From the NCBI RefSeq assembly GCF_910596095.1, contig NC_056539.1, positions 27,364,501 through 27,428,500 on the forward strand: 64,000 bases of DNA, in the 5' to 3' direction. The translations under genes were made by a program, and so were the position numbers. The DNA is from Thunnus maccoyii (Eukaryota; Chordata; Actinopteri; Scombriformes; Scombridae). Shown one piece after another: positions 5,353 through 35,972 of the stretch (its first letter is position 1; each line of letters begins with the position of its first letter). Below the pieces are notes generated by a model. It was not told the origin of the DNA. It saw nothing but the letters and a program-made list of their open reading frames with translations, and did not search any database.

Positions 5353-5578
5353 TTGTGCGCTTATTGTTTCTGCTCATGTTAAGGTGATTTCAGAGAGTGA
5401 TGCAGCATTTCAGTCTGAAATGAATGTTTAATTGGTCTCCGATTGCTGGATTTTGGTCTATTTTCCTGAGCAGTTCAACCAAAGATTCCCCTCTTCTTTG
5501 CTGTTTAAAAGAGAAAAAAAAAACGTTAAAATTCATCATCAGCATTATTATCTGTTTCTCACTCTATTTGTCTTCCAG

Positions 5579-8500
5579 TCACATCTGTTTTCTGAGCACC
5601 TCACCTTTTTCGGTAACAGTGTACATAGCCTCCATGCCTGCTTTAACGTGGTCAGTGACGTGACAGTGGAGCAGCCAGGTACCAGGATACTGAGGACGCA
5701 TCTTTACTGTCTGAACAGGAAGAAGACGAGAATTTTAGGTCCTGAATTTTACTTTCATTAAATGTTGACAACACTGTCAAGCCAGAAGAGAGTCTAATTT
5801 TTCTGTAATTTATTGATGAGAAATTGTAAATTTGAAATTCCCTTTTAAATTTCCTTCCATCCATTTTCCTTTTAAACATTTTAGCAAAGGAAGACCAGCA
5901 CAGTGATTTTCAACCTTAATTCAGTGTATAAGTCAGTAAAGTGTTTCATATCTATAATTTCAACAACACTAGGTATTGATCTGTCTTTCTGGCTGTATCT
6001 TAATATTTATAAAAGTGATGATAAATGTAACTTTAAAAAATGTTGCCTGCATTGGAAACACTCTATTTCACTTGTTTCTATTCTTGCGTATATGTTTTTA
6101 TTGTTTCTATTTCCTGTTTCTTGTCTTATTTGCAGTTTTTTTCCCAAGCTTGTTTTAAGAAAATCATTTTTTAAGGAAATTAGTTGTTAGGTAGGAGATT
6201 TTACAGTGCAATGGATGATGAATAACAACTTTTTCTATAATCACATTGATCCCCTGTTACACTATTGATGATTTATTGATGTTTAACTGCAACATGTAAC
6301 ATTTAGAGTAAAAAGCCAAAAGGTTGAGGTTTTACCTGGAAGGTGGCTGGAAAAAGGTCAAACACATCAGTACTATGAGGACCTCCATCCAGCTGCAGAG
6401 CAAGGAGAGTTATAGGTGTTATTGTGAGCACCAGAGTGTGTTTGTAACTCTATGATTGCTATGTTTGTATGTTTTTTACATACCTTATATTCCACAGTGT
6501 GACCATGCCAGTGCACACCGTGTATGTCCACGTCAGTGCCCATTCCCATCAGGTACCAGTAAATCTTATCACCCGCCTCCATGGTCAAGCCCTTCAGGTT
6601 ACTATACACATAACCATTAATGGCTGCACGTGGACACACAAACAACACACGTCAACATATCGGAAAGAGAATTCAGCAAATTTCTTTTGATGTCTACGGC
6701 AAGTGATGCAACACAAAATCCCAATATTTGTCAAAATGATGCAGATCATAGTGTGTTTATCTCACCATGCATCTTGTTGCTTTCTTGAAAGGCTTCATCA
6801 TCCTTCAAGTCTGGGCGAGGGCTCCTGATATGGGTCCTGATGTTTTCATCCAAATACCTAGAATATTAATAAAAATACAAATTTGACAAATACTGTACAA
6901 TAATAATAATATAGTAATAATATATAGAACAGCAGTTTGTGTCTCCCAGCATTGCTACAGAGAAATATTAACATTACTGTCCAGTGTATCTTGACAGTGA
7001 TGTGTACAGTATGTGTGTATCAGCTTGATGAGATGTCAAAATATGATAAAGACATTAGGTGGGATATAATATAACCCTGTAATGCACCCCTCACTATCAA
7101 CTTTTCAAATCTGATTTATTTTCTACTAATGAAATAGTCCCAATGAAAAATCTTGTGGTCTGTGGATTATTCTGACTAACAGTGACGTCTCTCGAGAGGC
7201 AAGTTTAGGAGAATTTCACATTTTCAGTGTTTTATAGGAGGTATCATTCAAATTGTCTTTCACACAGATATCTCAAAACCTCAAAAAAATCAAACCTATC
7301 TGCATGAATTGATACTATGTAGTAAAGGTGGGAATTTGTTTTTTGTAATTTGGGCAAAGTTACCATTAAAAGATCTAAAAAGTTAAAGGATAGGTTCACA
7401 ATTTTCTTCAAAAGTCTTAAAACAACAAGTCAGGTCCCCAAAGGAACATTGAAACAGGTTTTGCTTGCTGTAATCATTCCTCCTGTTCATACTGACTATT
7501 AAAAGTGATGAGGGGACAAAATCCACAGTTCTCCTTCTGTGCAAGAATGTGTTTATATGTTTATCTGAAGCTAATATTAAGCTTCAGTCGTCCAAACTTG
7601 TCAAATCAAGTCAACGTCTTTCAAAGTTACTGTCTCTTTAGAGCTGAATTCCTTCTTTTTGTTAATATCCTTCCACTGCAGCTCAACAGGGAAACAAAAC
7701 AAGGGATTTTTTTGCTAAAAAGACCGTAACTCAGGAAGATAACCAGAGCTGCAGTCTATTGACTAAGATATCGACTGACTCAGACAACTGAAGCCTCTTA
7801 TCAGCTTCTGATAAACTTTGAAAGCACATTTGAGGAGGATCTTTTAATAGCCAGTATGAACAGGATGAATGATTACAAAGAGCAAAACCTCTTTCAGTGT
7901 TCATATGGGTACATGACTATTGTTTTAAGACAGACTTGACAAATTGTGATCCTATCCTTTAATGGTTAATTTTAAGGTTACAGTAGCTCTACTTACCAGC
8001 TCTCATTCTCATCAAAAACCAGGAAAAGCAGTGCAAACTCTTCTACTTCCTTCTTCAGTCCAAGGCTCCTGAAACACAGTTTTATATAAAACTGTATATT
8101 AGCACTCTGTCATACTTATTGTGTGGTGCAGTACAAAAACGCATTTACCTGCCTTTTCAGGTATTTTCAGGTAATCACACAAGCACACTGTATACTGCAT
8201 AACAACAGAGGCATTAACTGGTTTAGATAGTTCTGTATCAACGCTCACCTGCCCCAGCTTCGGCGACAGATCACCAATGGACCAACCAGACCGCTGTACA
8301 GATCCTGGCAGGCAGGGAGACCACATGTCAGTGTGTGTGTGTGTGTGTTTGTGTGGCTGCGTGGTGTGTGTTTGTGTGTTAGTGTTAGCGTCAGCATACC
8401 TTAGCAACATCCACAGTAGAGTAGTATGCTGACACAGAGCACTCCTCCTGCTCTGTGGTTGGTCCTGTCTTCTTTGTAACGTACCAGTAGTAGGTGTGAG

Positions 8501-11500
8501 TCTCACCTGCGAAAAAGCACCAATTCAGATTATTAAAGGTTTGAGTCCTATTTTCAGAAAACTGAAGTTACACATAGTCCAGTAGTGACTGAGACCAATT
8601 TATACAGTTTAGCATTTAGTTTTGAAGACCGAGTCCTTTGATATTCTCAGAAAGTTAAAGCAGTACACACTTAAAGTCCAGATGAAATGAAAAATGCCTT
8701 TTAAACCCTTTTAGATCACATCCCTGGTCATATTGTGCACCTATTTAACAATATATGCCCAAAAAATTGCAAAAAATCAATTTTTTTGTATTTTAATATC
8801 AAAATCCAATCATGTTTTCTTCTTATAAAACAAAATATGACGCATGCTTACGTAGGCTTGAACCAACCAATTTCAACCAATAATATCATGATCATCCACC
8901 CATCAATCAATCCTCAACTTTTAGCGTTACAGAACTAAGATTAATTTTGACATGCCCACTTTTCAACATTCAAATAAAAGTCCTCCCAACGTTATGTCTC
9001 ACTTGTCTATCCTGTATGAAATGCAGTTTAATGCCTTAATTACCACCAGTAAGTGAGCAGTTTATGTTAATATTCATTTGGCAAAAAATGACTCATAAGC
9101 CTGAACATACATGAGCTTATCCACACACAATAAATCATTTACTGTATAGTTGAAGCAAAGTCATGTTTCTGAGAAAAATATGTATATAGGTAATTATTCT
9201 TGTGTTTACATTGTTATTTGCTGTACATTTATGAAGAGTCATGTAAGAAAGTTGATGTGATGCTATTAAAGGAAAACTGTGGCTTTCCTTAGGGGGCCAA
9301 ATACTTTTATTGGAGGTCCAGATTTGGCCAACAGGCCGCTATTTGCCTAATGCTGCAAAAGACCCGGTTATACCTGTATCAAATAAAGCCACCATTCAAC
9401 AAGTTTGTAGAAAATGGTGGTGGCACTGCCTGCTACTCTTCTAAACCACTTTTTTCACCTTTAATTGACTGTAAACCTTAAAGCATTGATAAATACATAT
9501 GAAAAACTGGTTGTTAATTTTGTCTCTTTGCCACATTAACAACCAGGAAAATAAGCATTCAGGAGTTTTATGTTAACTTCTAATGGTTTTAGGTGTTTTT
9601 TATCCTGCCTGTCTGTACCTGGTTTGGTGTGGTGGATGTCAGGGGTGTCTGTCTTTACTCCATGGGCATGGATAGAATAATCCCTGGTTGCCATGTTCTT
9701 AAAAACCACCTTCACTTTGTCCCCGACATCTGCATGGATCATTGGACCTGAAAGAAGGGAAGATTCTCTAATTACCAGATTAAATGCATAACATGTCATA
9801 TAATGTGTGGATATTTGATTTAATTGTAGATATGAGGCAGTCTTAATTCTCATGCTTGGCTCTCACAGCCTACCCATAATGCCGAGGTGTTCCATATCGG
9901 GTCGTTTCTCCACCTGCTTTGTGAATTTGTCGCTGGTGAACTGACGGTAGACCACCTTCTTGTAACGGGAGCCTATAAATCCACCCTGCTGGTCTAGGAA
10001 GACGCCAGCAGGACTGTAGGGAGAGAGAGGCAGGCTTAATTTGTAGTAAATAAAATGGAGGTGTGTGTACGTAAACATGTGTGTAAATGAATCTGAGTTT
10101 ATCTGTTACGTTACTATAAAGAAATACAAAACATTCAAGACGACAAAAAAGCATAAAACATAAAAAGTAGGACAGAAAATCTTAAATATTTAATATTTGA
10201 GATTTAAACTTGAGATTGTACATTTACATATACAATCTCAGGTTTTGGACTTTAATGCCTTTTTATAAATATACTGTATAATATAAGTAAATATACTGTA
10301 GAGGGCACATAGAAGGACAATTTCAATATTTGCTGTGATTATGCAATAATGGAAAGTAACTCAGTACGTTTACTCAAGTACTATTTTAGGGCACTTGAGT
10401 ATTCCCATTTTATACTCTAAATACTGTACTTTTTCTTCCACCAAATTTATCTGACAGCTGCAATTACTTTTGCAGAATAAGATTTATCATACAGAATACA
10501 TGATGAGCTGTAAAATATGATTTTTATAGGTTAAACAATAAAACAGTATAGAAATCAGTTTAAAATTGGGTCCACCTCCACCAGCTGTCAGATTTAAAGG
10601 CTGCTTATATGTTAATGCATTAATAATAAAACTGCAATAATATAGCATGCTAAAACACTCAAAATGAGTACTTCTACTTTTAATACTATAACAAAGTATT
10701 CTTATGCAGTAGTACCGTTATTTTCATAAATAAAAAAAGAAATTACAAGTATTATGTTATACTTTTGAAAGGTCGAAATATCATCAAATTCATAAATGTT
10801 TAGACAGAATATGTGCAGGTGTTACTTTTCCTGGCCGCGAAACATCTCGGCCTCCCAGGTGCGGTTTGGAGAGTAGTCCCAGTCCATCTCCATGGCAGCG
10901 ATGTAGTAGGTTTTAGAGTGGAGCATTGTTTCACCTTGACGGTGAAATATGCTGCACTTCTCTACTGTGTAGTTGGCTCGCATCCCGCCATGATAATTGC
11001 TCACTGTAGGAGACACCACTTCAAACTGACCTGAAAACACACAAAACGATTACATGTGTAGTTATATACAGTGCCAGACAACGTTTTAGATCTTTTTGAC
11101 TCCCTGATGAAGGCTCAATGCCAGTAACGGGTCGGAGCTTTGTTTTAAAATGACCATGCCATGACAATAAAGGCATTTTAATTGTTTTAAAAGGGAGTGC
11201 CTTGGAGTTTTCTTGTATTTTTGTGTCTACATGTATCCCTATCCAAAAAGCACCTCAAACAAACTCCTACCTTAACATTTTTTGAACGTTTTAGATTTGT
11301 TGGACCATGTATAAAATGATGTGTGTCATTCCTGAAAGGACAGAAAATGAATCTGTAACTATTCTGACAGTAAAATAATAATTTCTCAAGCAAAAATGTG
11401 AAATGTTCACCGATCCCAGCTTCTCAAATGTGAGAATTTGCTGTTTCCCCTTGTTTTAAATACAGTACAGTAAAGTTAGTATCAATGGGTTTTGGACTGT

Positions 11501-14500
11501 CAAACAAAACAAGACATGTGGAATCAATAACAAAATTAATTGGTTGCAGCAACATTCTGGAGTCTAAATCGATGGTTATTTTACTGTGTTTGTGATCTTG
11601 TACTTCTATCTTTGTGAGGACTCCGGTTGTAGACCTTCTAAGTGAGGACATCATGGGTTTATATGGACGTTTTGGCTGGTTTTCACTTCTTTAAGGGACA
11701 ACTTGAAGAAATTGTTTAAGGGTTAAAGTTTGCGAGGGTAAAGGTTTTGTTTTAGCCCCATGGTCAAACTTATGGGAAGTAAGTTCATCTTATGTGGTAT
11801 ATATTCTCCTTTTCCTTCCTATTCAGTTTTACCTGGTTTGGTCTTATTAAATCTTTCTATATAAAAGGCCATGAGAGTCTTGTTATGGGAAGATGGATTC
11901 ATCGTGTTTTTATGGCTTTGTTTCTACTAGGTTTAATTTTCTCTTGTCTTTTCCCAAAACTAAACTTAAGACCAGAGGGGACCCCGGCTCTGAAATGACC
12001 TGCCTGAGGAGCTCAGACTCACCAATTCACTATCTTCTTTTAAAAGCTAATTTTTGTTGACTGGCCAACCAATAATTTTTTGTCTTTATTTTTCATACAC
12101 ATTGTTTACATTTTAGATATTTATCTAATGTTGGTTTTATGGTTTTCTGTTAAATCTTTTATTTAATTGCTTGTTTTGTGTACAGAACTATGTAACACTG
12201 GTTTTGACAAGTGATATACAAATAAATGATTAATCCTATTATCACTATATATATTGTTAAAAATGTTTTATACATTTTATTGTTATTGTTTATTGTTAAC
12301 AATTGTTTTTATTCATTTTGTATATTATCTTGCAATGTTAAAGTTGTCACATACATGCCATGAAGTGGTTTAAAAGGAAAGACAGGTGAAGACAGAACTG
12401 AAATATAAATAAATAAACAAACAAATTAATAAATAAATAAAAAGCAAATTAATTAAAATAAAGAAATGAAATAATAATAATTAATTACACTAACAGTGAC
12501 ATAAATTGCACAAACCAGATAGTGGATATACACAATTAAAGCATCACGTACTGAATAGCATGATCTGGATATACATATTGAACATTGCAACAAGTGTTTT
12601 CACAAGTATAAAAGTACAATCGTACTGTGCAAAAGTGTAAAAACTGTAAAAGTGTGAAAGAGAGAGAAATGCATACCCATGCTGTCTGGCTCCATAGTAA
12701 CTGTGTGTGAGATGTGAGGGAAAACGCTGATGCTGTCTCGTCTGGTCTGGCGGTAGAGGAAGCGGTTTCCCTCGAAATAGAGGCTGTTGATGTCCGTCTC
12801 TGAACCCAGTCCTGACAAGTGCCATGATACTTTATCCCCCTTACACATGGTCAGGCCTGGGAGGCTCCTATACACAAACCCATTGATGGCTGAGAGAGAA
12901 TGAAAGAAATAAAACACACAGTCATTATCTCACGATGATAAAACAATTGAGAGAAAAGGTTAAAAACGTGTTATGTGAACTACACACAGTGCATCTTGTT
13001 GCTCTCCATAAAGCCCTCGTCCTCCTTGTCAACAGTGGTGGGAGCTGTGGTGTAGGTCTTAATGTTGTCATCCAGATACCAGCTCAAGTTTTCATCAAAC
13101 ACTGTAGCCAGGAGGTGGAACTCTTTCTCGTAATTTTTCTACATGAGGAGAAGAGAGAAGAAGAAGAAAAGTGTCAAATTACGATTTGATTGATATATTT
13201 GTCTTATAATCTGGTCATGGTTCTTCGCTGTGATCTCCAAGTTGGGCGCTTGAGTCTCTTGAATCGGTACACTGTAAGGCAAGTGGTCGCATGATAAATT
13301 GTGAGAAGATTAGAAGGATAGGAAAGTAGAAACACATCTGCACATATTTAGTCCTTCAGGGGTGTCACAAGTCCAAAGGGGGTTGGGAAACCCTACTGTA
13401 GAGTGTGCACCTCACAAGATCCAACAGTACCTGAATGTTTAACTGGCTCCACTGTTTTCTTAACATTTTTTTTTTCATTTTGTCTATTTGGTTACATTAA
13501 TCCTGCTAGATTTATACTAGGATTATTGTTGTTATCAGACTGTTAGATTATGCTTTTTGCACTGGAACCAAATCCACTACCAGTATGAATAAGTCACCTT
13601 TCTTAACTGACCATCATCTCCAAAAGAACATTATCCAGGATAGTTTGACTTTGAATTTCTGCACATAAAGCACACATATGGTGCCATTATGTACTGTAGC
13701 TGCAGTGACCCAGCCATGGCCACTTCTTTTATACAAGTCTTAAGCTTCAATAAAGGTTAAGGCTTTAAATTTTGCATTGAAATTCTCCTGTGGCCTCATT
13801 CATTCATCTCTTTTTATAGGCTTTTAAACATGCATCTGTCACTTTAAGTTTCTCCTGCTTCGAAGCAAAGTTCACAACTTATTATACAGTCAAACACTTC
13901 ACTGTCCCTTCACAGAGCAACTCCATTACATTGTACTCCATCTTTCCTCAAGCAGCAGCACAGATTATGATTAAAACAATACAACAATAACCACAACTGG
14001 AATGTGATCTGCCCAAACACTCATCATATTACAAATGTTTTACATATAAATATTAAAAAGAAATCTGATTAAAGCCTCTTCCATCCTTTAGTTTTTGTCT
14101 TTCTCCTCACCTGTACTCCTTTCTTCAGGGAGCCAGGTCGACAGACGAGGAGGGGTCCGACCAGTCCAGAGCTGGTGTCCTTGACAGCGTCGACTCCAGA
14201 GTAGTAGAGATGGGTCAGACAGTCGGCCTCCCCTTCTACTGGCCCAGCTCCCAGAGGCACTGTCCACTCATAGGTGTGCACCGTCCCAGGTCTGACCAGA
14301 GCAGCTGGAGGAGGGGTCACCACCCCTAAACAGATAAATTTATATATAGAAAGAAAATTATTATGATTATGATAGATAGATTGTAATTCATGCATGCTTA
14401 CCGAGACTGGTGTTGTAATTTTAAATGCAAGGGTGTTTTTTCAAACTTTACAGTACCTCAGCTCACAGATTGAGCTGGAGGTGGTTTGGCTGATAACCGC

Positions 14501-17500
14501 ATGCGTCAGTTTTTGCTAGTAGCTATATGGGGATCCCTTATCTGCCACAGCTCAGACTGCTTTTTTTGCAACAGCAACTTGAATAACATCTTGTTCAGAG
14601 CTAATGTCATCCGAGCTAGCATCGCCATGCAAATTAAAATTCCTTCAGCTTCATCTTAATTTTCAGAGTTACTATGATCAAAACGTTCAAATATCAAAGA
14701 AAGTGCTTTCTCTGTAGTGTATGTGACACCTCAGTGCTGTAGCATCATGTTACTGTGACAGTAAGCTGATATAAAACACTCTTCTTCATCCTTGTGCCTG
14801 CAGTTATACGTAGCAACAATAAGAAAACAATGCCACCATGAAGCCAAACAGGAAAACATAATATTATACAGTAGGGTCCAGAAGATCTGAGACCACTTTC
14901 CCTTATGAAAGTGGTCTCAGACTTTTGGATTCCATTGTATGTTATCAGTAGCAACCTGCATACTGGTAATAAAAAAAAATAACACTATTACATACTTTGG
15001 TTCTCTGGTGACACAACAAACACTTTAGCAAAAAACATTTGAAAAACTGTGATTTTTGACAACAGAAGTTGAAAACAAGTAGTTTGAGGAATGGCAGGGA
15101 GCTGAGGGCTTAACTGTATAAGAGGTATAAATTAGACAGGGTGTAATACTGCCCCAGATGGCCAAAAACCCAAGGTATGCATGTAAAGGTTAAGCTGTAT
15201 TACTCCACTCACTTGGTTGCTTCTTTAGCTCCCGCAGCTTCTTCGCTGTGTAGGACTCTGAGGAGTAGAGGAGGAGTAAAGATGCATGAGGGAGACATGA
15301 AAAAAGACTGAAGATGTAGTCCAATGATAAAAGTATGTGTGAGTATTAACCTTCCAGTTCATTGTGATACACCGTCCCATCCTGTTCTATGCTGTACTGT
15401 ACACCATGTGGTTGTATACTGTAAGGCCGGCTGGCTTTGTTCTTAAACACCACCTTGATAGTGTCTTTCTCTTCAGCTCGCAGCACAGGACCTGGAGACA
15501 GAGATAGAAACACACACACAGTTTACTGGTTTGTCGGAAATTCAAGTCAAAGGCCCTCTAGTTGAAGTTTAGATGGGGGAAATTTGACATATCCCAAACA
15601 TAATTAGTGTCCCGACAGTGCAGATATGTGTCTGATAAAGACAGAGTGTTTCAGACAGATGAGGCTGCAAGATTGGGGACAGTGCAGCACTAATTTTCTC
15701 ACAGCATGGTGGTAATGAGATCCTGCTGATGTACTCTGAAAAACTTTGAATTAGACTCACAGTCTAGTACTTGTCTGGAACTAGTCCATCATGAAATGGG
15801 TGCTTGGCCTTAGCTAATTGGCAAACTGTGAAGAAGGGAGCCAAAAAAGAAATTCAAGAGGTCAATTTACTTGTTGATTAATCAACAATAATCAAATAAT
15901 AATGCTTGGTATTCTCTGGTATCTGTTTTCTGTCATTGTAAACGGATCATCTTTGGGTTTAGAAGAGTTGGTTGAATTTAAAAAAGGAATCTAAAATTCT
16001 TCATCTGGGAAGGAAATCTAACTTACTACCTAATTAGCTACATAACATACATGTTTTAAACTGAGAATAGGCCATTTAGAGTCCCTCAGTTTAAAAACAA
16101 CAGGCTGAAGAACTATTTTATACATCAGTCTATCGTGTTGCTTAACCAAGATCAGTGTGCTGCCAATTGAGATCTAAATCATGAGGACATGAAGCGATGT
16201 ATATGACTGTTTGATTGTTTGATGTGTTATGTGCAGCTATGAAAATGGCTATTTGTGTATCTGTATATTTAATCTGTGTGTCAACATCTTAAATATAACT
16301 GCTTAAAGATGCAAAATGAATTTCAGTGTAAGCTAACAATGAAGTTGTTTTGTATCATATCGTATCGTATCGCATTGTATCGTATTGTGTGGTATCGTAT
16401 CGTATCCTAATGTATCGTATCGTGTTGTATCGCATTATATCGTATTGTATCGTATCGTATTGTATCGTATCGTATTGTATCGTATCGTAATGTATCGTAT
16501 CGTATCGTATCGTATTGTATCGCATTGTATCGTATTGTGTGGTATCGTATTGTATCGTATCGCATCGTATCGTATCGTATCGCATTGTATCGTATTGTGT
16601 GGTATCGTATTGTATCGCATCACATCGTATCGTATCGTATCGTATTGTATCGTATCGTATCGTATCGCATTGTCGTATTGTGTGGTATTGTACCGTATCG
16701 TATCATATTGTAACATATAAGATACCATAGATAAGTTACATTTTTTCAGGTAGTAAGAAGAGGTGAGGTACTAGGTTGTATTAATCATTGTTTAATTTTA
16801 CTTAACCAGAAAAAAAACTGTGGTTCTTTATCTTGAGGTTTAACTTAGCTGTTGTGATCAGCTCTGGCTAATATGACATGTGCCACCAACCCCAACCAAG
16901 CCTGAATTACCCAGAATCCCGAGGTGTTGTTCCTCTGGGCTGCGTAGTAGCTTTGTTGTGAAGGTGTTGTCAGTGTACTCCACATAGCGAGCCTTCTTGT
17001 AGCGGCTTCCGATACGACTCCGGCCTTTGGTTACAAACTTGTCTGCCTCACTGCAAAAACACACACAAACACAATTTAGAAAAGGGTTAGGTCTGTTACA
17101 GAAACCATTGCTGTGCAAATATATAAGTAACTAACCCATCAGTCGGCAGTGTAGGAGCGTAGTCCCAGACTTCTTCTTCTGCAGCAATGAAGTACAGCCT
17201 GAGCTCACCATGTGGACGGGCTTTATGGACCTCGGGGAAACACTTCTTGATCTCAAATATAGCCTGCATTCCAGCTGAACAAAAGTACAAAACAGAAGCT
17301 CTTAGCCTTTGGGATGACATAATGTCTTTGTGAAATTATCTACCTGATTTTAAGAGTGGAGGATGTGAGCTCACCCATCAGATGGTCGTTAACGGTGCAC
17401 GTCAGCAGCCAGTGTCCGGGGTTGTCAGCTACCATTTCAGCCGTAGTGCTGGTGGCGGGGAAAAGACTGATTGTGTCTGTGTGGTGTTTCTGAGTGGTCA

Positions 17501-20500
17501 AGATCTGACCATGGAAATGGACTGAATGAATGTCCACCTGTAAATGGTTAATAAATGACATTTAAGTAGGGTTCAGATTGAGTGCTTTTGGCTCATATCA
17601 GCCTATTAACAAGATGTGACATCATCTAGCAAGCGGATCCATTTAAAATACAATACAAACTTATTTTTGAGCATTCATAACACATGTTCACAAATATGGT
17701 TTAACAAACTACCGCATAGACAAGAATTAATTGTGGAGGGAAAGCAAGTGTCTCTTTGACATTTCAAAGTAAGGCTGTACCTCTTCTATACAGTATATAA
17801 CAAAACTGACTACACCCCTCTGTAATATCACTAAAAGGTTAAATGATTCAAAATCGTATCATCTTACAATGATTGTATTACGTTTAGGGTGAAGTATAGG
17901 GTGTTTGATCTTATTTGTAATTAAAAACAAACAGGTTAGAAAGACTAAATTGAAAATACAGGCCTCAAGTACAACCTCAATGCAACAATAGTGAGTACAC
18001 CTGTGACTTCCAATTAAGACTAATTGCCTGAATAAGGTTATAAAAGAACCCGTGAATACCACAACTTTCTTAGTTTTGGCCTTGGTTGTGTCTCATGCAA
18101 CATGGCTCCACATGGTGAGGAATTTCCTGAACAACTAAGAAACCAGATTGTGAGACTTCATAAAGATGGGAGAGGGAGAGGAGCAGAAGTCAAAACACAG
18201 TTGCAGCTGTGGTTATTAGGTACAAGAGGACACATACTACCAATAACAGAAGGTGCAGTGGCCAGCCTCGAAAAATTTACACAACCTTGTGCTGAAAAAC
18301 AGACGGGCAAGTGCTTCTGATATGGCACAAGGATTAACTGTGGAAATTGGTGTTTCAGTGAATGATCAGACCGCGAAGGACATTACATGAAGTCAACCTC
18401 TACAGATGACATCCAAAAAGAAAACCATCGCTCACAAAACAGAACAAAAATTCAAGATTAAACTTTGCCAAAGAACATGAAAAGAAGCCTGATGAATACT
18501 GGCGGCACATTCTTTGGTCAGATGAACCCAAAATAAATTTGTTTAGATCAGATGGAGTCCAGCATGTTTGGCGTGGACCTGGCCAGGACTACCACAGTGA
18601 CTGCATAGTGCCGACTGTGACGCATGGAGGTGGGAGTGTGTTGATACGAGGCTGCATAAGTGCAAAAGGTGTAGGGGAGATGACATTTATAAATGACACT
18701 AAGAATGCAGGTTTGTATACCCAAATACTGAATGAAAAGATGACTCCCAGTCTCAGGAAGGTTGGCAGGAGAGGAATTTTCCAACATGACACTGATCCCA
18801 AACACAAAAATCACAGAAAAAGAAAAAAGTGACAACTATGACCTGGCTAAGTGTGTCCCCTGACCTGAATCCAATAGAAGCTTTGGAGTATTTTAAAGAG
18901 GAAGGCTGAGCAACAAAACTCCTCCAGCAAAGAGCAGCTAAAAAGAATCATCTGTGAAGAATGACAGAACATCTCTCCACAGATTTGGACAAGACTGGTA
19001 TCATCCCTGCCCAGGAGGATCAAATCTGTCATCAAAAACAAAGGCGGGCATATAAAATATTAAAAAATAAAAGAATGGAGTCTCACTAATGAAGGTGTAC
19101 TGACTTTTGTTGCAGTTCGTTCTTAAATATGGACCTTTCATTATAGTTTAATTAGTGAAACATTCTGTTCTTCAAGTGAATTGGTTTAATTCTTCAGGCG
19201 TTTTGTAAAACAAATAAAATTGTATTAAATGGAAAGGATTTGTAATTAACATTTTAGTGATATTGACCAAGGGTGTACTCAGTTTTTTTATTGAAACTTA
19301 TACCCTGCATTATCCACACTCCCACGACTACCTCAAGTTTTTTTTTACACTATAACATATTGCGTATTACATTTATTTTGCACTTATTGTAAATAAATAC
19401 ATGTACATTATGAATAAATCTGCAGATTATTTTCTGTATTTCAGAAATTAGTGCAAAATGCCCGTCACAATTTCACAAAACCCAGAATGATGTCCTTAGA
19501 TGTCTTGTTTTCATTTCATTTTATTTATTTATCTAAAAGGACAACGAACATTAATCAAAATTTCTGTAAATGTACCAGTGTCAGTTAGCTGGCTAATTTT
19601 CAACTGCTGTCCTTTGGTGAGATGTTTTGTCAGACCAACAGTCCCAAATTCAAAGATATTAGGTTTATGATGATGTAAAATACAGAAAATTCTCCCAAAT
19701 GAGAAGAAATTTTTGGCATTTAAATATTTGGAGATTTAGATTGATTTTTCTGTCAAATGTCTGATCAATTAATCAAGTAACTGTTTCAGCTCAATTCCAA
19801 AATTTTTAATATGATTGGTGAAATAGGCTGCGGCAAACTTTCAGACACCAAATGAGATCTGAAACTAGCTTGCATCCTTAAAACTATTTACTATTGAAAG
19901 AGTGTTTGAACAACACAAATCTTATGTTCATGGTTACCAGATGTTCTCCTACTTATTTATAATGTTTGGATTCATAATACCAGTAAACTCATTTTATGGT
20001 TGTCAAAGCTTTTCAGTCACTTTTAGCTTTTTCCGAACATACTTAAATAGACAAAACACACACAATGTCCACAGTTTAAACAACTAGTTTTGATTAGTTG
20101 TGTTTTAAAACTGTTATGGCCATTGGTTTCAATGAAAAATGTTAGATGTGTTTCTCATTAATAATACATTCATTACCTCGTTGCCTAAGCCGAATAAATG
20201 CCAGTGGATCTTGTTGCCTTGGCACATGCTCAGTCCAGGCAGGTTACCATACAGAAACCCGTTTATACCTGAAATACACAGTCAGGGTTAAAAGTGCTGT
20301 ATGTGTTCATGTATGGGTGGGTTTGTATAAGGACTCTCTCTCCTCACTGTGCATCTTGTTGCTCTCAATGAAATCTTCGTCCTGTTTCAGGTCTCTGGCG
20401 GGACTTGTGATGTACGTCCTGATGTTTTCATCCAGGTACCAGCTCATGTTTTCATCTGACACCATGAACAGCAAAGCGTACACATAGTCCGCCACCCGGT

Positions 20501-20635
20501 CTCCATGTACGTCCAGAGTTCCTACAGAGGAGAGGAGGGATTCAGTCTGTTGTTTTAGGGATATGTGAGACGCACTTAATGTTTGTCATAAAATTCAATT
20601 ATAGATATTAATATGAAATTCACAGTATTAAATGC

Positions 20636-20671
<36 letters not shown>

Positions 20672-23657
20672 GCAGGACATCTTAAGAGGAAAACCGTTTC
20701 TAATTGATATTTTGTTTATTGCCTCTTGTTGATTTTTGTTTATTTGGCTTCTTGTTTATCCAGTTGACATTAATTTGATGAATCACTGTAGGGTCTGTAT
20801 CAAAAAACTTCCTGCTGTCAGGTTTGGTGTTAACATGTTAAAATACATGTAATCTATGTCATCAGAGTTTATGTATTTAAGATGAAATTGAAAACATTTA
20901 CATATCCTGTGTACTTTATTTACATAATGTGTGAATAAACTTATGTGAATATACTGTGAATATGTCTACATATATGTATAAATCACTCAAATAAATTAAA
21001 TATAAATAATAAATATATTTACATGTACAGAAAACTAATATGTTACCAAATACCAGGAATTGAAATATTCACACATATTAGAAATATTATATATTTACAT
21101 AGATCGAGAACTTATTTATAAAGGCAATGAATATATGTAAATATATCAGATAAAAAACATATATTTAAATAGGTCTAATATGTGTGAGAAAATATTAAAA
21201 AGATCTAATATTTCAATTATATTTTCATTTATTTATCTAAGTATAAAATATATTTTCTTCTATTTCAATTGAATACACTGAAATATATATAAATCTAATT
21301 ATTCTTAATATATTTCAACCTATGTAACTTCTGTATGGGTTTGGTTATATTGCTTCTTATTCACCTTGCTGACATTAATTTGTTGAATTTGATTATTGGT
21401 GAAATACTGTATGTTTAAAAGGAACCCAGTACCTCGCTTACAGACGAGGAGGGGTCCTATCAGTCCTGAGTAAATGTCTTTTACGGGGATCACATGGGAG
21501 TGGTAGAATCTGGTCATGCAGTTGCTGTCCTCTAGTGTTGGACCGTGCGACTCTGGGAGGGTCCACTCGTATATCACTGTTGTACTGGGAGCCACGGAGT
21601 CGTCCCTCTTCTGCTCTGGAGGGGTGCCATCTGGGTACAGGGCTCCTGAGGAGGAAGATACAAACACACACAGTCACAGATCTGTTCATCAGCCTCTTCA
21701 GTCTGTCCATGCACAATCATGGACAGGTTCACTCATTTCCTCACCCTCATGGCCCTTGCTGTAGTTGAGTCCATGGGGGTGGATGCTGTACGGTCTGGAT
21801 GCTATGTTCCTCAGTTGGACGACCACTGTGTCTCCCTCTTCAGCTGTGATCAGGGGTCCCAGGTAGCCCAGCCAGTTTGGCTTTGTCATTTCGGTCCTGT
21901 AGGTGGCGTCGGTGTACTGCTTATAAATGGCCTTCTTGTAGGTGCCACCGATTCGCTGGGGGCCTCTCTTCAAGAAGACTGAGGCTTCTCTGCAGAGAGA
22001 TGCAGGCAGACAGAGACAATAAGGTGGGTGAGTGGTCAGGATCCATTAATATGAACTGAACACATATCCACCTGCGAATTGTAGATAAATAACATTTAAG
22101 TTGGGTTCATATTGGTTGCTTTTGGCTGATATCAGCCTCTTGACAAGATGTGATGTAAACTAGAGTGGATCAATTTGGTATCCAAGTGTGTAAAAACTAA
22201 ACTAAAATGCACTAAAAATGTTTTTGGACATCCAATAACACACAAATAACAAAACTGGTTTTGACAAACTACCAATATAGACAAGAATTAATTGTGGAAG
22301 GAGTGTCTTTTTGACATTTGAAAGTAGGGCTGCAACTAACAATTATTTTCATCAATTAATCTGCTGATTATTTTCTTTATTAATGTATTAATCATTTGGC
22401 CTGTAACATGTCAGAAAATAGGACAAAATAAACAGTATCAGTATCAGTAAACCCAGGTTAATGTTTTCAACAGTCCAAAGTTGCAAAATTAAGTGTGCTT
22501 GTGTACTCGTTATTGATTACAGTTAAAAGATTTCAAAACCTGTAACACTGAGGAAAAACACAGTTTCGTAATACAAATGATTTTATAGATATGTAGTTAC
22601 TTATTGGATAGGCCTTGTTCACAGCAGACATTTTGACATATCATGGTAGGAAAAGCACAGGTGTTACTGGTAACATTAATGATGGCTCTGTTTTATTCAA
22701 ATGTCCCAGTAAGCCATGACAGTGTGACAGTGAGTCGACATCCATCAGCCTGAAACCGAAGCAGCTAAATCAAATTCAACCATCATTCATTTTATTTACA
22801 CTTGTGATTTTCCTAATGTGACATGTTGAAATAACTTCGTCTTTTAAGATACCTGACACTGAAGAGCCAATTAGTTAAATCAAGTCGATATCTTTCAACA
22901 TTACAGTCTTTTTAATGCAAAATTCCCTCTTTTTGTTATGATCCTTCCACTGCATCTGAACAAGAAAACACTTTCCGTCAAGACATAAAGAAGGGTTTGT
23001 TTTTTTTACTAAAAAGGCTGTAATTGTGGAAGATATCCATTTTATTTGACTAGCTCAGACTGGTGAAACCTCATATTATCTTCAGATAAACTTTTAAATA
23101 CGGTTTTGCTCAAAACGAGGACTGTGGGTTTAGTCCACCATCACAATACATTGCAAGAAAATTTGGGGGGATCTTCTAATGGTCAGTATGAACAGGAGGA
23201 ATGATTACAGCGAGTAGAACCTCTTTCAATGTCCATTTGGGCTCCTGACTGTTGTTTTAGGACAGACTTGAAAAATTGTGAACTTGTCCTTTAAGTACAA
23301 CTAAAATAATCTTTAAATTCTTATTCAGTATTTGATATTCCACTGTGAGAGGAGACCATCTTTTCTTGGTACCAGTGAGGAGTTTTGTATTTTGGTTGCT
23401 GCATTTTGGACAAGCGACAGGTGTCAAAGGGCTGACTGATGGACTCATAAAGAAAGTTACGATTATCAAGACGATGTAAGATATGTGTGTACTTACTCAT
23501 CCTCCTGCAGTGTGCGGTTCTGTATGACGTTCATCCCACTTGGGGCGTAGTTCCAAGGCACCTCCTCTATCCTGATGAAGTATTCTCTCCTCATCCCGGA
23601 CACACATACTGCTGCACAACACAGCAGCAACAAACGCCTTAACCCCAACCGCTGCAT
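5579..23657 (-). CDS. cp: Ceruloplasmin (multicopper ferroxidase), complete, 23 coding exons
   Basis: Secreted copper protein that oxidises Fe(II) to Fe(III) for transferrin loading. Coding exons in order: 23657-23497, 21989-21745, 21645-21433, 20521-20348, 20268-20177, 17537-17375, 17274-17136, 17050-16911, 15491-15351, 15257-15213, 14325-14111, 13138-12988, 12889-12677, 11030-10826, 10013-9874, 9747-9619, 8506-8400, 8304-8249, 8068-7997, 6857-6766, 6623-6484, 6392-6336, 5710-5579. They total 3222 nt (1073 aa plus stop; human is about 1065 aa). Introns are GT-AG and phases match. A hydrophobic signal peptide covers residues 1-20. Three domain pairs lie at about 20-375, 380-720 and 725-1073. 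The trinuclear cluster is intact: H124/H126, H184/H186, H1002/H1004 and H1045-C1046-H1047. Type-1 sites are complete in domain 2 (H299, C342, H347, M352) and domain 6 (H999, C1046, H1051, M1056). In domain 4 they are lost (N661, S704, N709; M714 kept). The frame has an upstream GTG, but the first ATG (23657) directly precedes the signal peptide. There is no C-terminal membrane segment, which argues against hephaestin. Confidence 0.95.
7383..7972. mobile_element. Inverted-repeat element, family A, copy 2 (cp intron 19)
   Basis: Most complete copy of the family. It begins TTAAAGGATAGGTTCACAAT and ends with the near reverse complement ATTGTGATCCTATCCTTTAA. The arms are about 130 bases each and the interior is non-coding. 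It lies in the cp intron between exons 8068-7997 and 6857-6766. Confidence 0.7.
8507..9618. other. cp intron 16, no further gene
   Basis: AT-rich intron with no open frame of interest and no element recognised with confidence. Confidence 0.5.
10343..10720. repeat. Interspersed repeat, cp intron 14
   Basis: Begins GGAAAGTAACTCAGTACGTT and continues with TTACTCAAGTAC, a pattern familiar from a very abundant fish repeat. The far end (AAATGAGTACTTCTACTTTT) resembles an inverted version of the start, suggesting a small non-autonomous DNA element. Non-coding. Confidence 0.5.
11930..12240 (+). mobile_element. LINE 3' end fragment, cp intron 13
   Basis: The plus strand has a LINE C-terminal remnant around ACCTGCCTGAGGAGCTC (reading LPEEL), followed by a tail with TGTAACACTGGTTTTGACAA and ATACAAATAAATGATT, the usual end of L2-like fish LINEs. 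It is 5' truncated and lies antisense to cp. Confidence 0.55.
13139..14110. other. cp intron 11, nothing recognised
   Basis: No coding frame and no clear repeat; contains only short A/T runs. Confidence 0.5.
14874..14938. repeat. Foldback sequence, cp intron 10
   Basis: GAGACCACTTTC and GAAAGTGGTCTC form a 12-bp perfect stem around CCTTAT. Similarity extends outward to about 30 bases per arm with mismatches (GGTCCAGAAGATC against the complement of ACTTTTGGATTCC). Likely the fused ends of a Tc1-like miniature element. Confidence 0.55.
16351..16715. repeat. (CGTAT)n satellite, cp intron 8
   Basis: About 365 bases of the pentamer CGTAT with variants (CATTGTAT, TGTGTGGTAT). A longer unit of about 60 bases recurs from 16521 to 16581, with partial versions near 16371 and 16666. 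The pure unit lacks stop codons in all six frames, which explains the overlapping open frames here; none is a gene. Confidence 0.95.
17804..19295 (+). mobile_element. Degraded Tc1-like transposon, cp intron 5
   Basis: The terminal inverted repeats share ACTGACTACACCC (left, about 17804) and its counterpart ACTGAGTACACCC (right, complement near 19285); both continue with CAATATCACTAAAA-like sequence. The transposase remnant reads on the plus strand: an N-terminal helix-turn-helix start ([15 protein letters not shown], 18120s), a middle DDE part (QHDTDPKH, about 18780) and the third motif [11 protein letters not shown] near 18857. It has several frameshifts and stops and is antisense to cp. Confidence 0.85.
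19415..19795. repeat. Inverted-repeat element, family B, diverged copy (cp intron 5)
   Basis: Shows the family B order (AATCTGCAGATTATTTTCTG ... GATGTCTTGTTTTC ... GAGATTTAGATTGATT ... AATTAATCAAGTAACTG), interrupted in the middle by unrelated sequence. It is older than the copies near 33.1 and 56.1 kb. Confidence 0.4.
20637..20665. repeat. (TA)n microsatellite, cp intron 3
   Basis: About 28 bases of alternating T and A. The following 650 bases (to 21410) of this intron are very AT-rich with many ATATATTTA-like words and no recognisable element. Confidence 0.8.
21990..23496. other. cp intron 1 with two repeat remnants
   Basis: Holds a truncated family B copy (GGGCTGCAACTAACAATTAT, 22328 to about 22490) and a 5'-truncated family A copy (about 22850-23292, ending in the conserved TTGTGAACTTGTCCTTTAA). 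The remainder is unrecognised. Confidence 0.55.
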
Positions 23658-26575: not shown

Positions 26576-29500
26576 CTAAGCGTTAAGACTGTACTCCTGC
26601 TTATAGCAACATGGCCGGCAGACGGCGTTGACTAAACCGTTGCCGAGCTGTAAGAGACAGATGATGAACTCCAGCAAAGCCAGGCCCAGTAACACACACA
26701 GCAGAGTCACGTTCCACTCTACGATATGGACCGGCTGGAGACACCGTGACCACGTCTCTGGCTGCAACAGATACCTGGAACACAGAGACAGATGAGTGTA
26801 GAGAGTCAATCAAAGGAAGACAGTGGCGAAGTGCAACAGATGCAAGCAAGTTGGTAGAAAGCAGGACTCTTGAGTGTTGCATTCTTAAAAACGATGTTAT
26901 AAATTACTAACAGGAGGAGCTGGATGATTTTAAAACTGAAATTAGCTGCAAAAATTCACAAAGAAGTGTCTCAATACTTCAAAATAAGGAACTAAGTGGA
27001 GGCTGACTGTGTTATTCTCTATATCTCAGTATCAGAACACCTCACTGTATTATTGTGCTTATTAGGGCTAAAACTAAAGATTATTTTCACTATAAATTAA
27101 TTTCCCAATTATGTTTTCGATTAATGGATGAATAATGAAATGTCAAAAATTGAGAGCATAAAAGTCCTGTGATTGTAATCACATGTCTTGTTATGTCCAA
27201 AACCCCTAAACACTCAATTTACAACAATATAAAATAAACAAATGCAGAAAATCTTCACATTTGAGAAACTGGAATCAGAAATTATTTGGCATTTTTATTA
27301 TTATTCAATAATTATTCAATTTTCAAAATTTTGTTGCAGTTACTGTGATTTATTATTGCACTTCCATAAAGTTAGGGGACAGTTAAAAAAAAAAAAGAAT
27401 GATTAAAATCAAAGGAGCAGAAGGTGAATAATCCTGACTTTAGCATGGTTCACGCTCTAAAGAGACTGGATCCTACATTACCCATAATGCAACTCAATAG
27501 CATCTTTCATTATCTTAGCACAATAATTTGTAAAAATGTTTGATATATCATTTTATAGGATTTTAAAAGACACCTGCTAGCTAATCCAAAAGATGTAATT
27601 ATAAAATAACAAGTTAATACTTGGTTCAGTATGTTTACACCACAATACTGATGATGATGATGATGTATAATGATGCATCATTCTTGCAATAAATGACCTT
27701 TTGCAGTGTAGCTTTAATCACTTTTTACTTTGCAGGGTTACAAATCTTTGACCCCGTTTCTCTTTGCTGCCAGTAGCTGCCAGCACAGATCAGTAATTCT
27801 TTACTTTACACCATCACATGCACCACTTATATCACCGTCTTTAAAGCTCTTAACATTTTCTGTCCCTGTTAATCTATTGAAGGCATGTTTGTTCATATGG
27901 ATGGGCTGAAACGGGTTTTAGCGTTGTAATCGGCTGGTTTTATACACCAGAATATAATAATTTTTTGCAATAAATTACCTTTACTTCTGCAGTTGCACTT
28001 GTGACATTAGGAATTATTATTTACATTTAGGTTTTATAGTATTATGTGAAATGCTTTACAGAAAACACCAGTGTGCATGATGAGAGAGCTCAAAACAGAT
28101 GAACAGGTGAATTCTAAACAGGTTTTAACAAAAAAAAAACTGCATTTTTTATTTACAGCATTGACTTCTTAAAGAACACAAACATGCTCCTGTTCCCTAC
28201 CTGCCCCCCTGGTCTGAGAAGGGGTACGTCCATCCGTAAGAGGTGAAGCACTGCGGCCCCTGCACCAAGGCGAACCCTGATATGACGAAACAGTAAGCAG
28301 ACCCCACCATGCCGACCACAGCTGCCAACACTGACCCGCACATCTGGAGAGCAACAGACACACACACACAGGGGTTTTTTAGGAAGAACATCCACGTGTT
28401 TGGAAACCTTTTTGTGTGTCTGTGTATCTGTCTGAATGTTAGCTACTTCATTTCTCTGTTTCATAGATAAGAAACAGAGGCAGCTGCTACTGACACACAT
28501 ACACTTCTGCAGCTGTGCGTGTGGCGTGAGCGGTGTGAGCCGAGCTTACTTTGTCAAGTGTTAACTAACAATGGGACCCTTGTTGAATTATCATAGCTGG
28601 ATTAGCATTAGCATTCCACCTCATAAGAACACAGTGTCAGCTGGTTTAATGACAACTGTTTAGTGTTATTCACCAAGCGGTGAGAAAAAAAATGGAAAAT
28701 AGCAGTAAAATAGGAACACTGTGAGGAGTGAAAGACAGTTTTGGGCCAAAAAGTCTGATTAAAAAAAAAGCAAAGAAGCAACTGGAGCTAATTGTGGTGT
28801 GTGTGTGTAGCAAACAAAAATATACCAACATAAAACTAATTATTTGTTATATATTTTGGAAGATTCAGCTGTGAGTGTGCTGTAGATCTAAGCAGGACTT
28901 AGCTTAGCATCATACCGCACCGTCTCTCCTGGACCTTATTCAGACTGTAAAATCATTAATAGTTTGATAAGTCCCTTACCATTAAGCTCTCATTCCAGCA
29001 GCAGCTACATTTCCCCAGAGTGATGAAGACCACAGCTGGAATCAGCATCTGGAATCACAGAAAAGTATATCTTTTCAGTACAATTTTCTTTTTTTTTACA
29101 ACTTTTTGGGTGAGAAAAAGACAAAAGTTAATATAGAGAATCAAGCTGTGTGGTTCTAATCACATTTTGATGATAAATTTTTTTCATTTTGCTTCTCTCT
29201 TTTTTTTTTTTAGCAGTTATTGGAAACATTTCAAATCAGTGCTGACAGTGTAATTTCCCACTTTATAACACCACCTATAGCCCCATATGTACCTGTATGT
29301 ACCATCTACCTGATCTGTAAATAATGTTTATAACTGTGCACTTTTTTGCCCTATTTTGCTCTTCTGGTTTGATGCCTCACTGCTTTTCATTGTCTCAGTG
29401 CTTGTACTTTATCCAATGACAATAACATTGAATCTAGAACAAGTCAGTTTAGTTAATATTGCCCCAACAATGTACAGCATATAACGAACTGCAACTAATG

Positions 29501-35046: not shown

Positions 35047-35972
35047 ACAGATCTGCCACAATATTAAAACCACCTGCCTAATATTGTGTAGGTCCCCCTT
35101 GTGCCGCCGAAACCGCTCTGACCTGTTGAGGCACGGACTCCACAAGACCTCTGAAGGTGTCCTCTGGTAACTGGCACCAAGACGTTAGCAGCAGATCCTT
35201 TAAGTCCTGTAAGTGGCGACGTGGGGCCTCCATAGTCTGGACTTGTTTTTCCAGCACATCCCGCAGACGCTCGATCGGATTGAGATCTGGGGAATTTGGA
35301 GGCCAAAGCAACACCTTGAACTCTTTGTCATGTTCCTCAAACCATTCCTGAACATTTTCTGCAGTGTGGCAAGGTGCGTTATCCTGCTAAAAGAGGTCAC
35401 TGCCATCAGCCGGCTTGCCTTCTTCCCATAGCGCATCCCGGTGCCATCTCTTCCCCAGGTAAACGATGTACACACTCACCCGACTGTCCATATGATTTAA
35501 AAGAAAATTCATCAGACCTGGCTACCTTCTCCCATTGCTCCATGGTCCAGTTCTGACACTCACGTGCCCATTGCAGGTGCTTTCAGGGGTGGACAGTGGG
35601 CAGCAAGGGCATTAACTTTTTCAGCAATTTGTGCTACAGTAGCTCTTCTGTGGGATCGGACAAGACGGGCTATACTTCGCTCCTCCTGTCACCGGTTCAC
35701 CAGTTGTTCTTCCTTGGACCACTTTTGGGAGATACTGACCACTGCATACTGGTAAAACCCCACAAGACCTGCCGTTTTGGAGATGCTCTGACCCAGTCGC
35801 CATCATAATTTGGCACTATTCACAGTCGCTCAGATCCTTACACTTGCCCATTTTTCCTGCTTCCAACCACATCAACTTCAAGAACTGACTGTTCATTTGC
35901 TGTCTAATATATCAATGTTATTCATTTCACTAGTCAGTGGCTTTAATGTTATGGCTGATAGGTGTATGTCTA
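35047..35972 (-). mobile_element. Degraded Tc1/IS630-type transposon (intergenic)
   Basis: The terminal repeats share CACAATATTAAAACCACCTG (left) and the complement of AGTGGCTTTAATGTTATGGC (right). The transposase reads on the minus strand; [19 protein letters not shown] near 35290-35240 is the third catalytic block. Frameshifts and internal deletions break the frame. Fish elements of this type usually encode a longer transposase, so this copy looks internally shortened. Confidence 0.8.

Follow-up and report, generated by a model that had tools for sequence, protein, structure and literature searches.

The ceruloplasmin of Thunnus maccoyii has complete type-1 and iron-type ligand sets in domain 2, and its domain 4 has lost the two histidines and the cysteine of the type-1 copper site. 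We consider it probable that this protein, the sole ceruloplasmin found in the genome, uses domain 4 as a copper-free structural cupredoxin and domain 2 as the second electron entry, and that it derives from a three-site ancestor. The loss of the domain 4 site is itself already known for fish ceruloplasmin and has been in print since 2013 (PMC3600357).

The gene lies on the minus strand at 5475-23657 of the window, the whole stretch of 64,000 nucleotides that was analysed. With exon borders chosen by hand, the spliced model contains 24 exons, with GT-AG at 23 of 23 introns. The joined frame of 3222 nt is open over 1073 residues and has a single stop, which is terminal. The frame and the splice sites bear out the original prediction of an intact, in-frame gene, and a pseudogene or frameshift was rejected on the open 24-exon model.
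5475..23657, minus strand: complete ceruloplasmin coding region, from the hydrophobic N-terminus to the stop; no C-terminal membrane segment seen by eye

The protein has six cupredoxin domains and is closest to ceruloplasmin among the PDB sequences matched (n=27), with human ceruloplasmin as the best match (1212 bits, residues 9-1065). Hephaestin is absent among these 27 matches, and the distinction between ceruloplasmin and hephaestin therefore rests on ligand and secretion features. Ceruloplasmin is secreted and has no C-terminal anchor, whereas hephaestin has a membrane anchor. Read by eye, the N-terminus of the window protein is hydrophobic, the C-terminus is EKAKKRGIFG at residue 1073, and no C-terminal transmembrane segment, the hephaestin trait, is seen. 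By its signal-like N-terminus and missing anchor, the product would be a secreted ceruloplasmin. The mammalian definition, with a type-1 copper in each of domains 2, 4, and 6, does not describe this protein, in which domain 4 is without His, Cys, and His; PMC3600357 states this loss for fish ceruloplasmin, and it is therefore a feature of the fish type that leaves the gene in the ceruloplasmin family.

Rfam at gathering thresholds matched nothing in the window. Open frames at 26576-26809, 28197-28442, and 58339-58659 of the window contain L6_membrane matches; human CP lies near TM4SF genes.

The ligand positions of domain 4 are carried by three exons.
12988..13138, minus strand: exon 12, with E621 and H626 retained in the ESNKMH motif of domain 4 (gene model)
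12677..12889, minus strand: exon 13, first half of domain 4, with E657 kept (12798-12800) and N661 in place of the first type-1 His (12786-12788) (gene model and alignment)
10826..11030, minus strand: exon 14, second half of domain 4, with S704 for Cys (11011-11013), S708 for the iron Asp (10999-11001), N709 for the second His (10996-10998), M714 kept (10981-10983), and C723 kept (10954-10956) (gene model and alignment)

Specifically, the ligand columns of domain 4 read N661 (AAC), S704 (TCT), S708 (AGC), N709 (AAT), and M714 (ATG), where the human protein has His, Cys, Asp, His, and Met. Aligned with human ceruloplasmin (4enz, 1kcw), the protein is free of gaps from the ESNKMH motif to the end of the Cys-His-Met loop, and the substitutions therefore do not depend on how the sequences were aligned. 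The codons and the human alignment confirm what had been predicted: His/Cys/His replaced by N661, S704, and N709 with M714 remaining, and the iron Asp replaced by S708 with E621 and H626 of ESNKMH kept. The predicted positions, 10826-11030 and 12677-12889, are exactly those of exons 14 and 13. Type-1 ligands are changed at three of four places in domain 4, whereas domains 2 and 6 together have none changed of eight (one-sided Fisher test, 0.018). When iron ligands are included, the domain 4 unit has five changes at eight places and the other units have 0/16 (0.0013). The units and tests of both comparisons were picked after the data had been seen, and two of the five changes (Ser, Asp) occur in human hephaestin, so that the second figure overstates the case.

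Domain 4 is, judged by its sequence, retained as a fold despite the lost copper ligands. It shares 70/129 identities with human, the same as domain 2 (70/129), compared with 80/132 for domain 6, and the cysteine pair C642-C723 is kept, with disulfide pairing expected by homology. Searched alone, the domain 4 piece matched no Pfam family at E 0.1. The human domain 4 pair His667/Trp669 (PMC7147499) corresponds to Thr691/Glu693, and a sequon, N717-Y-T, lies three residues past M714. These replacements, the sequon near M714, and a similarity to human equal to that of domain 2 despite the lost copper could be taken as signs of a new role for domain 4, for instance as a surface that binds a partner without metal or as a changed pocket for the substrate, with the copper ligands replaced under selection. 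We regard such a role as quite improbable, because a domain that packs against its neighbours would be expected to conserve its fold in any case.

An assembly or annotation error, an alternative exon, or a pseudogene would make the loss only apparent, and the sequence does come from a single assembly. This explanation is strongly disfavoured and, in our judgement, hardly credible. The substitutions are separate codon changes in two exons of an otherwise open 24-exon gene. An alternative exon with canonical ligands, the case that would have spoken against the original prediction, was not seen in a motif scan of introns 11-12, 12-13, 13-14, and 14-15 on both strands; the scan gave 17 short matches, eight with stops and none domain-like by eye, and this candidate was rejected. 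With the domain 6 exon, exon 13, and exon 14 as queries, no second ceruloplasmin copy is found among the best-scored genome candidates. At 100%, each query hits a single place, the window itself; the remaining best-scored matches are the gene's own other domains (41-59%), a paralogue on contig C13 (38-57%), and loci on C11 and C8 (33-44%), which by similarity are probably factor V/VIII genes.

The same loss is also reported for other fish. The 2013 survey describes the domain 4 site as present in ceruloplasmin "except fish Cp" and names Tetraodon and the icefish Chionodraco (PMC3600357). According to its text, the ceruloplasmins of Tetraodon nigroviridis and Chionodraco rastrospinosus are six-domain proteins in which domains 1 and 6 enclose the trinuclear cluster and domains 2 and 6, but not domain 4, carry blue sites, as in the window protein. 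No difference between these proteins and ours is established, the likeness being drawn from the text of the paper.

Domain 2 is complete where its human counterpart is degenerate.
20348..20521, minus strand: exon 4, domain 2 ESNKMH, with E259 and H264 (human Tyr241) (gene model and alignment)
20177..20268, minus strand: exon 5, domain 2, with terminal E295, the equivalent of human E272 (gene model)
17375..17537, minus strand: exon 6, domain 2 H299, C342, and H347, and iron-type D346 (human N323) (gene model and alignment)
17136..17274, minus strand: exon 7, domain 2 axial M352 (Leu in human and rat) (gene model and alignment)

The type-1 set consists of H299, C342, H347, and M352, and the iron-type set of E259, H264, and D346, plus E657 supplied by domain 4. 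Human and rat ceruloplasmin (4enz, 1kcw, 5n0k) resemble the window protein in length, domain order, domain 6 ligands, and trinuclear His motifs. In domains 2 and 4, they show the reverse pattern: their domain 4 is intact and their domain 2 has Leu, Tyr, and Asn at the places of M352, H264, and D346, whereas here domain 2 is complete and domain 4 is without three of its four type-1 ligands. The human residues at the iron-type places of domain 2 are given as E236, Y241, N323, and E633 in PMC11817551. Domain 2 of the window protein would thus be expected to bind copper and iron and to be redox-active, and the potentially redox-active type-1 sites would still number two (domains 2 and 6). The literature examined, a scope outside which the alignment figure of PMC3600357 falls, has no statement on the Met and iron-ligand state of fish domain 2, and we make no claim of novelty.

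Domain 6 and the trinuclear cluster retain their ligands.
21745..21989, minus strand: exon 2, domain 1 trinuclear pair H124/H126 (SIHPHG) (gene model and alignment)
21433..21645, minus strand: exon 3, domain 1 trinuclear pair H184/H186 (FYHSHV) (gene model and alignment)
6766..6857, minus strand: exon 20, E959 and H964 of the domain 6 iron site (gene model)
6484..6623, minus strand: exon 21, domain 6 type-1 H999, trinuclear H1002 and H1004, and D995 for human E971 (gene model)
5605..5710, minus strand: exon 23, domain 6 C1046, H1051, M1056, and D1050, and trinuclear H1045 and H1047 (gene model)

The type-1 site of domain 6 comprises H999, C1046, H1051, and M1056, and its iron site E959, H964, D1050, and E295; the human equivalent of E295, E272, is donated by domain 2 to the domain 6 iron site (PMC3738974). 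All four His-X-His motifs are present (H124/H126, H184/H186, H1002/H1004, and H1045/H1047). Human structures show two facing pairs across domains, E633 of domain 4 opposite His324 of domain 2 and E971 of domain 6 opposite His685 of domain 4 (PMC6614124). The first of these facing Glu residues is kept in the fish protein (E657), and the second is Asp (D995).

In the reading that we prefer, the window protein would be a secreted multicopper ferroxidase. Iron would be oxidised at the domain 6 site, the residues of which are observed, and the type-1 copper of domain 6 would take up the electron and hand it on by way of His-Cys-His to the trinuclear cluster, which lies between domains 1 and 6; this is the path known from the literature for human ceruloplasmin. 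Domain 2 would most likely be the second electron entry, the role of domain 4 in human. The predicted copper content is five, not six, with two coppers blue and oxidisable. E621, H626, and M714, still present in domain 4, fit this explanation poorly. Retention of E657 may be structural, because its human counterpart E633 is conserved too, in a protein whose domain 2 is not expected to bind iron (PMC11817551).

The hephaestin-like paralogue on C13, read exon by exon from unspliced alignments, has 24/24 canonical ligands and all three sites intact. Like the window ceruloplasmin, it has Met and the iron-type set in domain 2; in contrast to it, the type-1 and iron ligands of domain 4 are kept. Because this paralogue in the same genome has all three units intact, the ancestor probably had three sites, of which mammals would have degraded the domain 2 unit and fish the domain 4 unit, each keeping domain 6 and one partner; the sequences compared are those of human, rat, and the T. 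maccoyii genome. According to PMC11817551, human hephaestin carries Met in domain 2, where an additional iron site of low affinity is predicted, with an iron-type set as in the window protein except for Ser at one place. In its domain 4, Ser occupies the iron Asp position and Asp the other altered iron position, with a type-1 site predicted to be intact. S708 alone is therefore not diagnostic of domain 4 loss, and Ser and Asp at these positions need not reflect decay.

Factor VIII resembles the window protein in that domains 2 and 6 hold mononuclear sites and domain 4 lacks one (PMC3600357), a pattern probably reached separately. It differs in being a clotting cofactor with extra regions and much lower similarity (724 bits for the best chain, versus 1212 for human ceruloplasmin). 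A second protein without the domain 4 site is also consistent with a tolerated loss, under which function would depend on domain 6 and the trinuclear cluster alone, domain 4 would have decayed because it could be spared, and domain 2 would have held on to its ancestral ligands with no new task. However, a dispensable domain 2 would be free to decay, and in this one genome its ligands are canonical at 8/8 places, versus 5/8 altered in that of domain 4; a simple tolerated loss seems unlikely to us, if deserving of some weight.

The original prediction of a functional change in domain 4 holds as a coding change in an open gene, but the human protein, in which domain 2 is redox-inactive and domains 4 and 6 form the redox-competent pair, was an incomplete yardstick for it, domain 2 being complete here. 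The 610-nm absorbance proposed as a check would not be expected to separate the fish from the human protein, because two oxidisable type-1 coppers are expected in each; a copper stoichiometry of five versus six would.

We tentatively propose, at a likelihood a little below even, that domain 6 plus one redox-active partner is needed and that the partner differs by lineage, domain 4 in mammals, where domain 2 was silenced, and domain 2 in fish, where domain 4 was. If true, the copper that stays permanently reduced in the human protein would be peculiar to mammals or tetrapods and would not belong to the enzyme as such. If domain 2 proves redox-active, the fish protein would be a natural enzyme for asking why human ceruloplasmin holds an unoxidisable copper, and would bear on whether six-domain ferroxidases require one or two electron entry sites.

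The window spans 27364501-27428500 of contig C7. The ceruloplasmin gene occupies 5475-23657 on the minus strand of the window. Its 24 exons, whose borders were set by hand and give GT-AG at 23 of 23 introns, join into 3222 nt with a sole stop at the end, encoding 1073 residues. The top Protein Data Bank match is human ceruloplasmin (1212 bits, residues 9-1065), far above the top factor VIII chain (724 bits). All eight trinuclear His are present (H124, H126, H184, H186, H1002, H1004, H1045, and H1047), as are, by sequence, the type-1 and iron ligands of domain 6. Domain 3 aligns with about 12 residues more than its human counterpart, partly from a 45-nt exon (exons 10 and 9, 15213-15257 and 15351-15491). 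An extended stretch of ATACG-like repeats in the exon 8-9 intron (16343-16720) keeps several frames open on both strands.

Features of the window and the related gene elsewhere in the genome
10826-11030, minus: exon 14, domain 4
12677-12889, minus: exon 13, domain 4
18410-18832: Tc1-like transposase remnant in the intron that separates exons 5 and 6 (Pfam HTH_Tnp_Tc3_2, 25.8 bits, under the curated cut-off)
26576-26809 and 28197-28442, minus, and 58339-58659, plus: L6/TM4SF membrane-protein matches in open frames next to the ceruloplasmin gene
35078-35386: Tc1-like transposase remnant (Pfam DDE_3, 50.8 bits)
51215-51523, minus: open frame that matches the initial part of the Pfam profile for gamma-glutamyltranspeptidase (PF01019) at 58 bits
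Contig C13, about 18772200-18786230 (L012-L014): hephaestin-like paralogue, the sole other ferroxidase-type six-domain gene among the best-scoring exon-search matches

The alignment of human and tuna domain 4 is gapless from the ESNKMH motif up to the Cys that follows the loop. Relative to human, the first type-1 His is replaced by N661 (AAC), the Cys by S704 (TCT), and the second His by N709 (AAT), and the iron-site Asp is replaced by S708 (AGC), while E621, H626, E657, and M714 (ATG) are retained. The original prediction of this loss holds in the spliced model and human alignment for every residue, number, and coordinate. The fold is retained, with the cysteine pair present and 70/129 positions identical to human (54.3%), which equals the figure for domain 2; domain 6 is higher (80/132, 60.6%). 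Three residues past M714, adjoining the former copper site, lies a potential N-glycosylation sequon, N717-Y-T (10966-10974, minus), aligned with human K-Y-T, which lacks the Asn. Thr691 and Glu693 (residues 690-695, VTMEPD; exon 13, 12684-12701, minus) replace the human His667/Trp669 pair, discussed for myeloperoxidase binding (PMC7147499, in excerpt).

Both strands of the four introns flanking exons 12-15 were motif-scanned for an alternative exon carrying the canonical ligands; of the 17 short hits, 8 contain stops, and none resembles such an exon. Exon 13, exon 14, and the domain 6 exon, searched against the 782-Mb, 54-contig genome, each have one full-identity place, the window; among the best-scoring matches to the three exons, there is no second ceruloplasmin with normal domain 4, and the nearest other gene is the C13 paralogue, with weaker matches on contigs C11 and C8.

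The explanation first offered was partly right: it missed the complete domain 2 ligand set in the spliced sequence. Domain 2 has type-1 residues H299, C342, H347, and M352 and iron-type residues E259, H264, and D346, with E657 of domain 4 the likely fourth iron-type ligand. Retention of E657 is a weak sign of such a site, because human keeps E633 although its domain 2 has no such site. Human domain 2 has a non-coordinating axial Leu and E236, Y241, N323, and E633 (alignment; PMC11817551, in excerpt), and rat matches human at Leu, Tyr, and Asn. The third human residue is aspartate in excerpts of PMC3738974 and Asn in the alignment and PMC11817551; reviews describe human domain 2 as permanently reduced, with no iron binding expected there. 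Human hephaestin, like tuna ceruloplasmin, has Met in domain 2 (PMC11817551).

In human ceruloplasmin, the three type-1 coppers lie ~18 Å apart, with domain 6 ~13 Å from the cluster, and Glu residues in one domain sit opposite a His that binds copper in the neighbouring domain (E272-H1026, E633-H324, and E971-H685; PMC6614124, in excerpt). In tuna, the domain 6-domain 2 (E295-H1051) and domain 4-domain 2 (E657-H347) contacts would persist, the domain 6-domain 4 contact (D995-N709) would now lack a copper ligand, and, judging from the ligands, the second electron entry would be domain 2.

Read exon by exon, the C13 paralogue is canonical at 24/24 positions, which comprise type-1 plus iron ligands in each of three units (domains 2, 4, and 6). 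Human and rat are changed at 3/24, all in the domain 2 unit, and tuna at 5/24. All five tuna changes fall in the domain 4 unit when the Glu contributed by domain 6 (E971 in human, D995 in tuna) is assigned to its target site, a tally to be read with caution as the units were defined after the data were seen. Human hephaestin shares two of the five: Ser in place of the iron Asp (S703) and Asp in place of E971 (D996; PMC11817551). For type-1 ligands alone, 3/4 are changed in domain 4 vs 0/8 elsewhere (p = 0.018). Sampling comprised one fish genome, human, rat, and the text of one survey (PMC3600357).

That 2013 survey already reports domain 4 site loss in fish ceruloplasmin; therefore, tuna is one more case of a published fish trait. 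The survey's appendix also includes zebrafish ceruloplasmins, which its text does not take up individually. The sequences would be most simply explained by an ancestor with three sites, followed by degradation of the domain 2 unit in mammals and of the domain 4 unit in the fish lineage of tuna. It is this reciprocal condition of domains 2 and 4 that merits testing.
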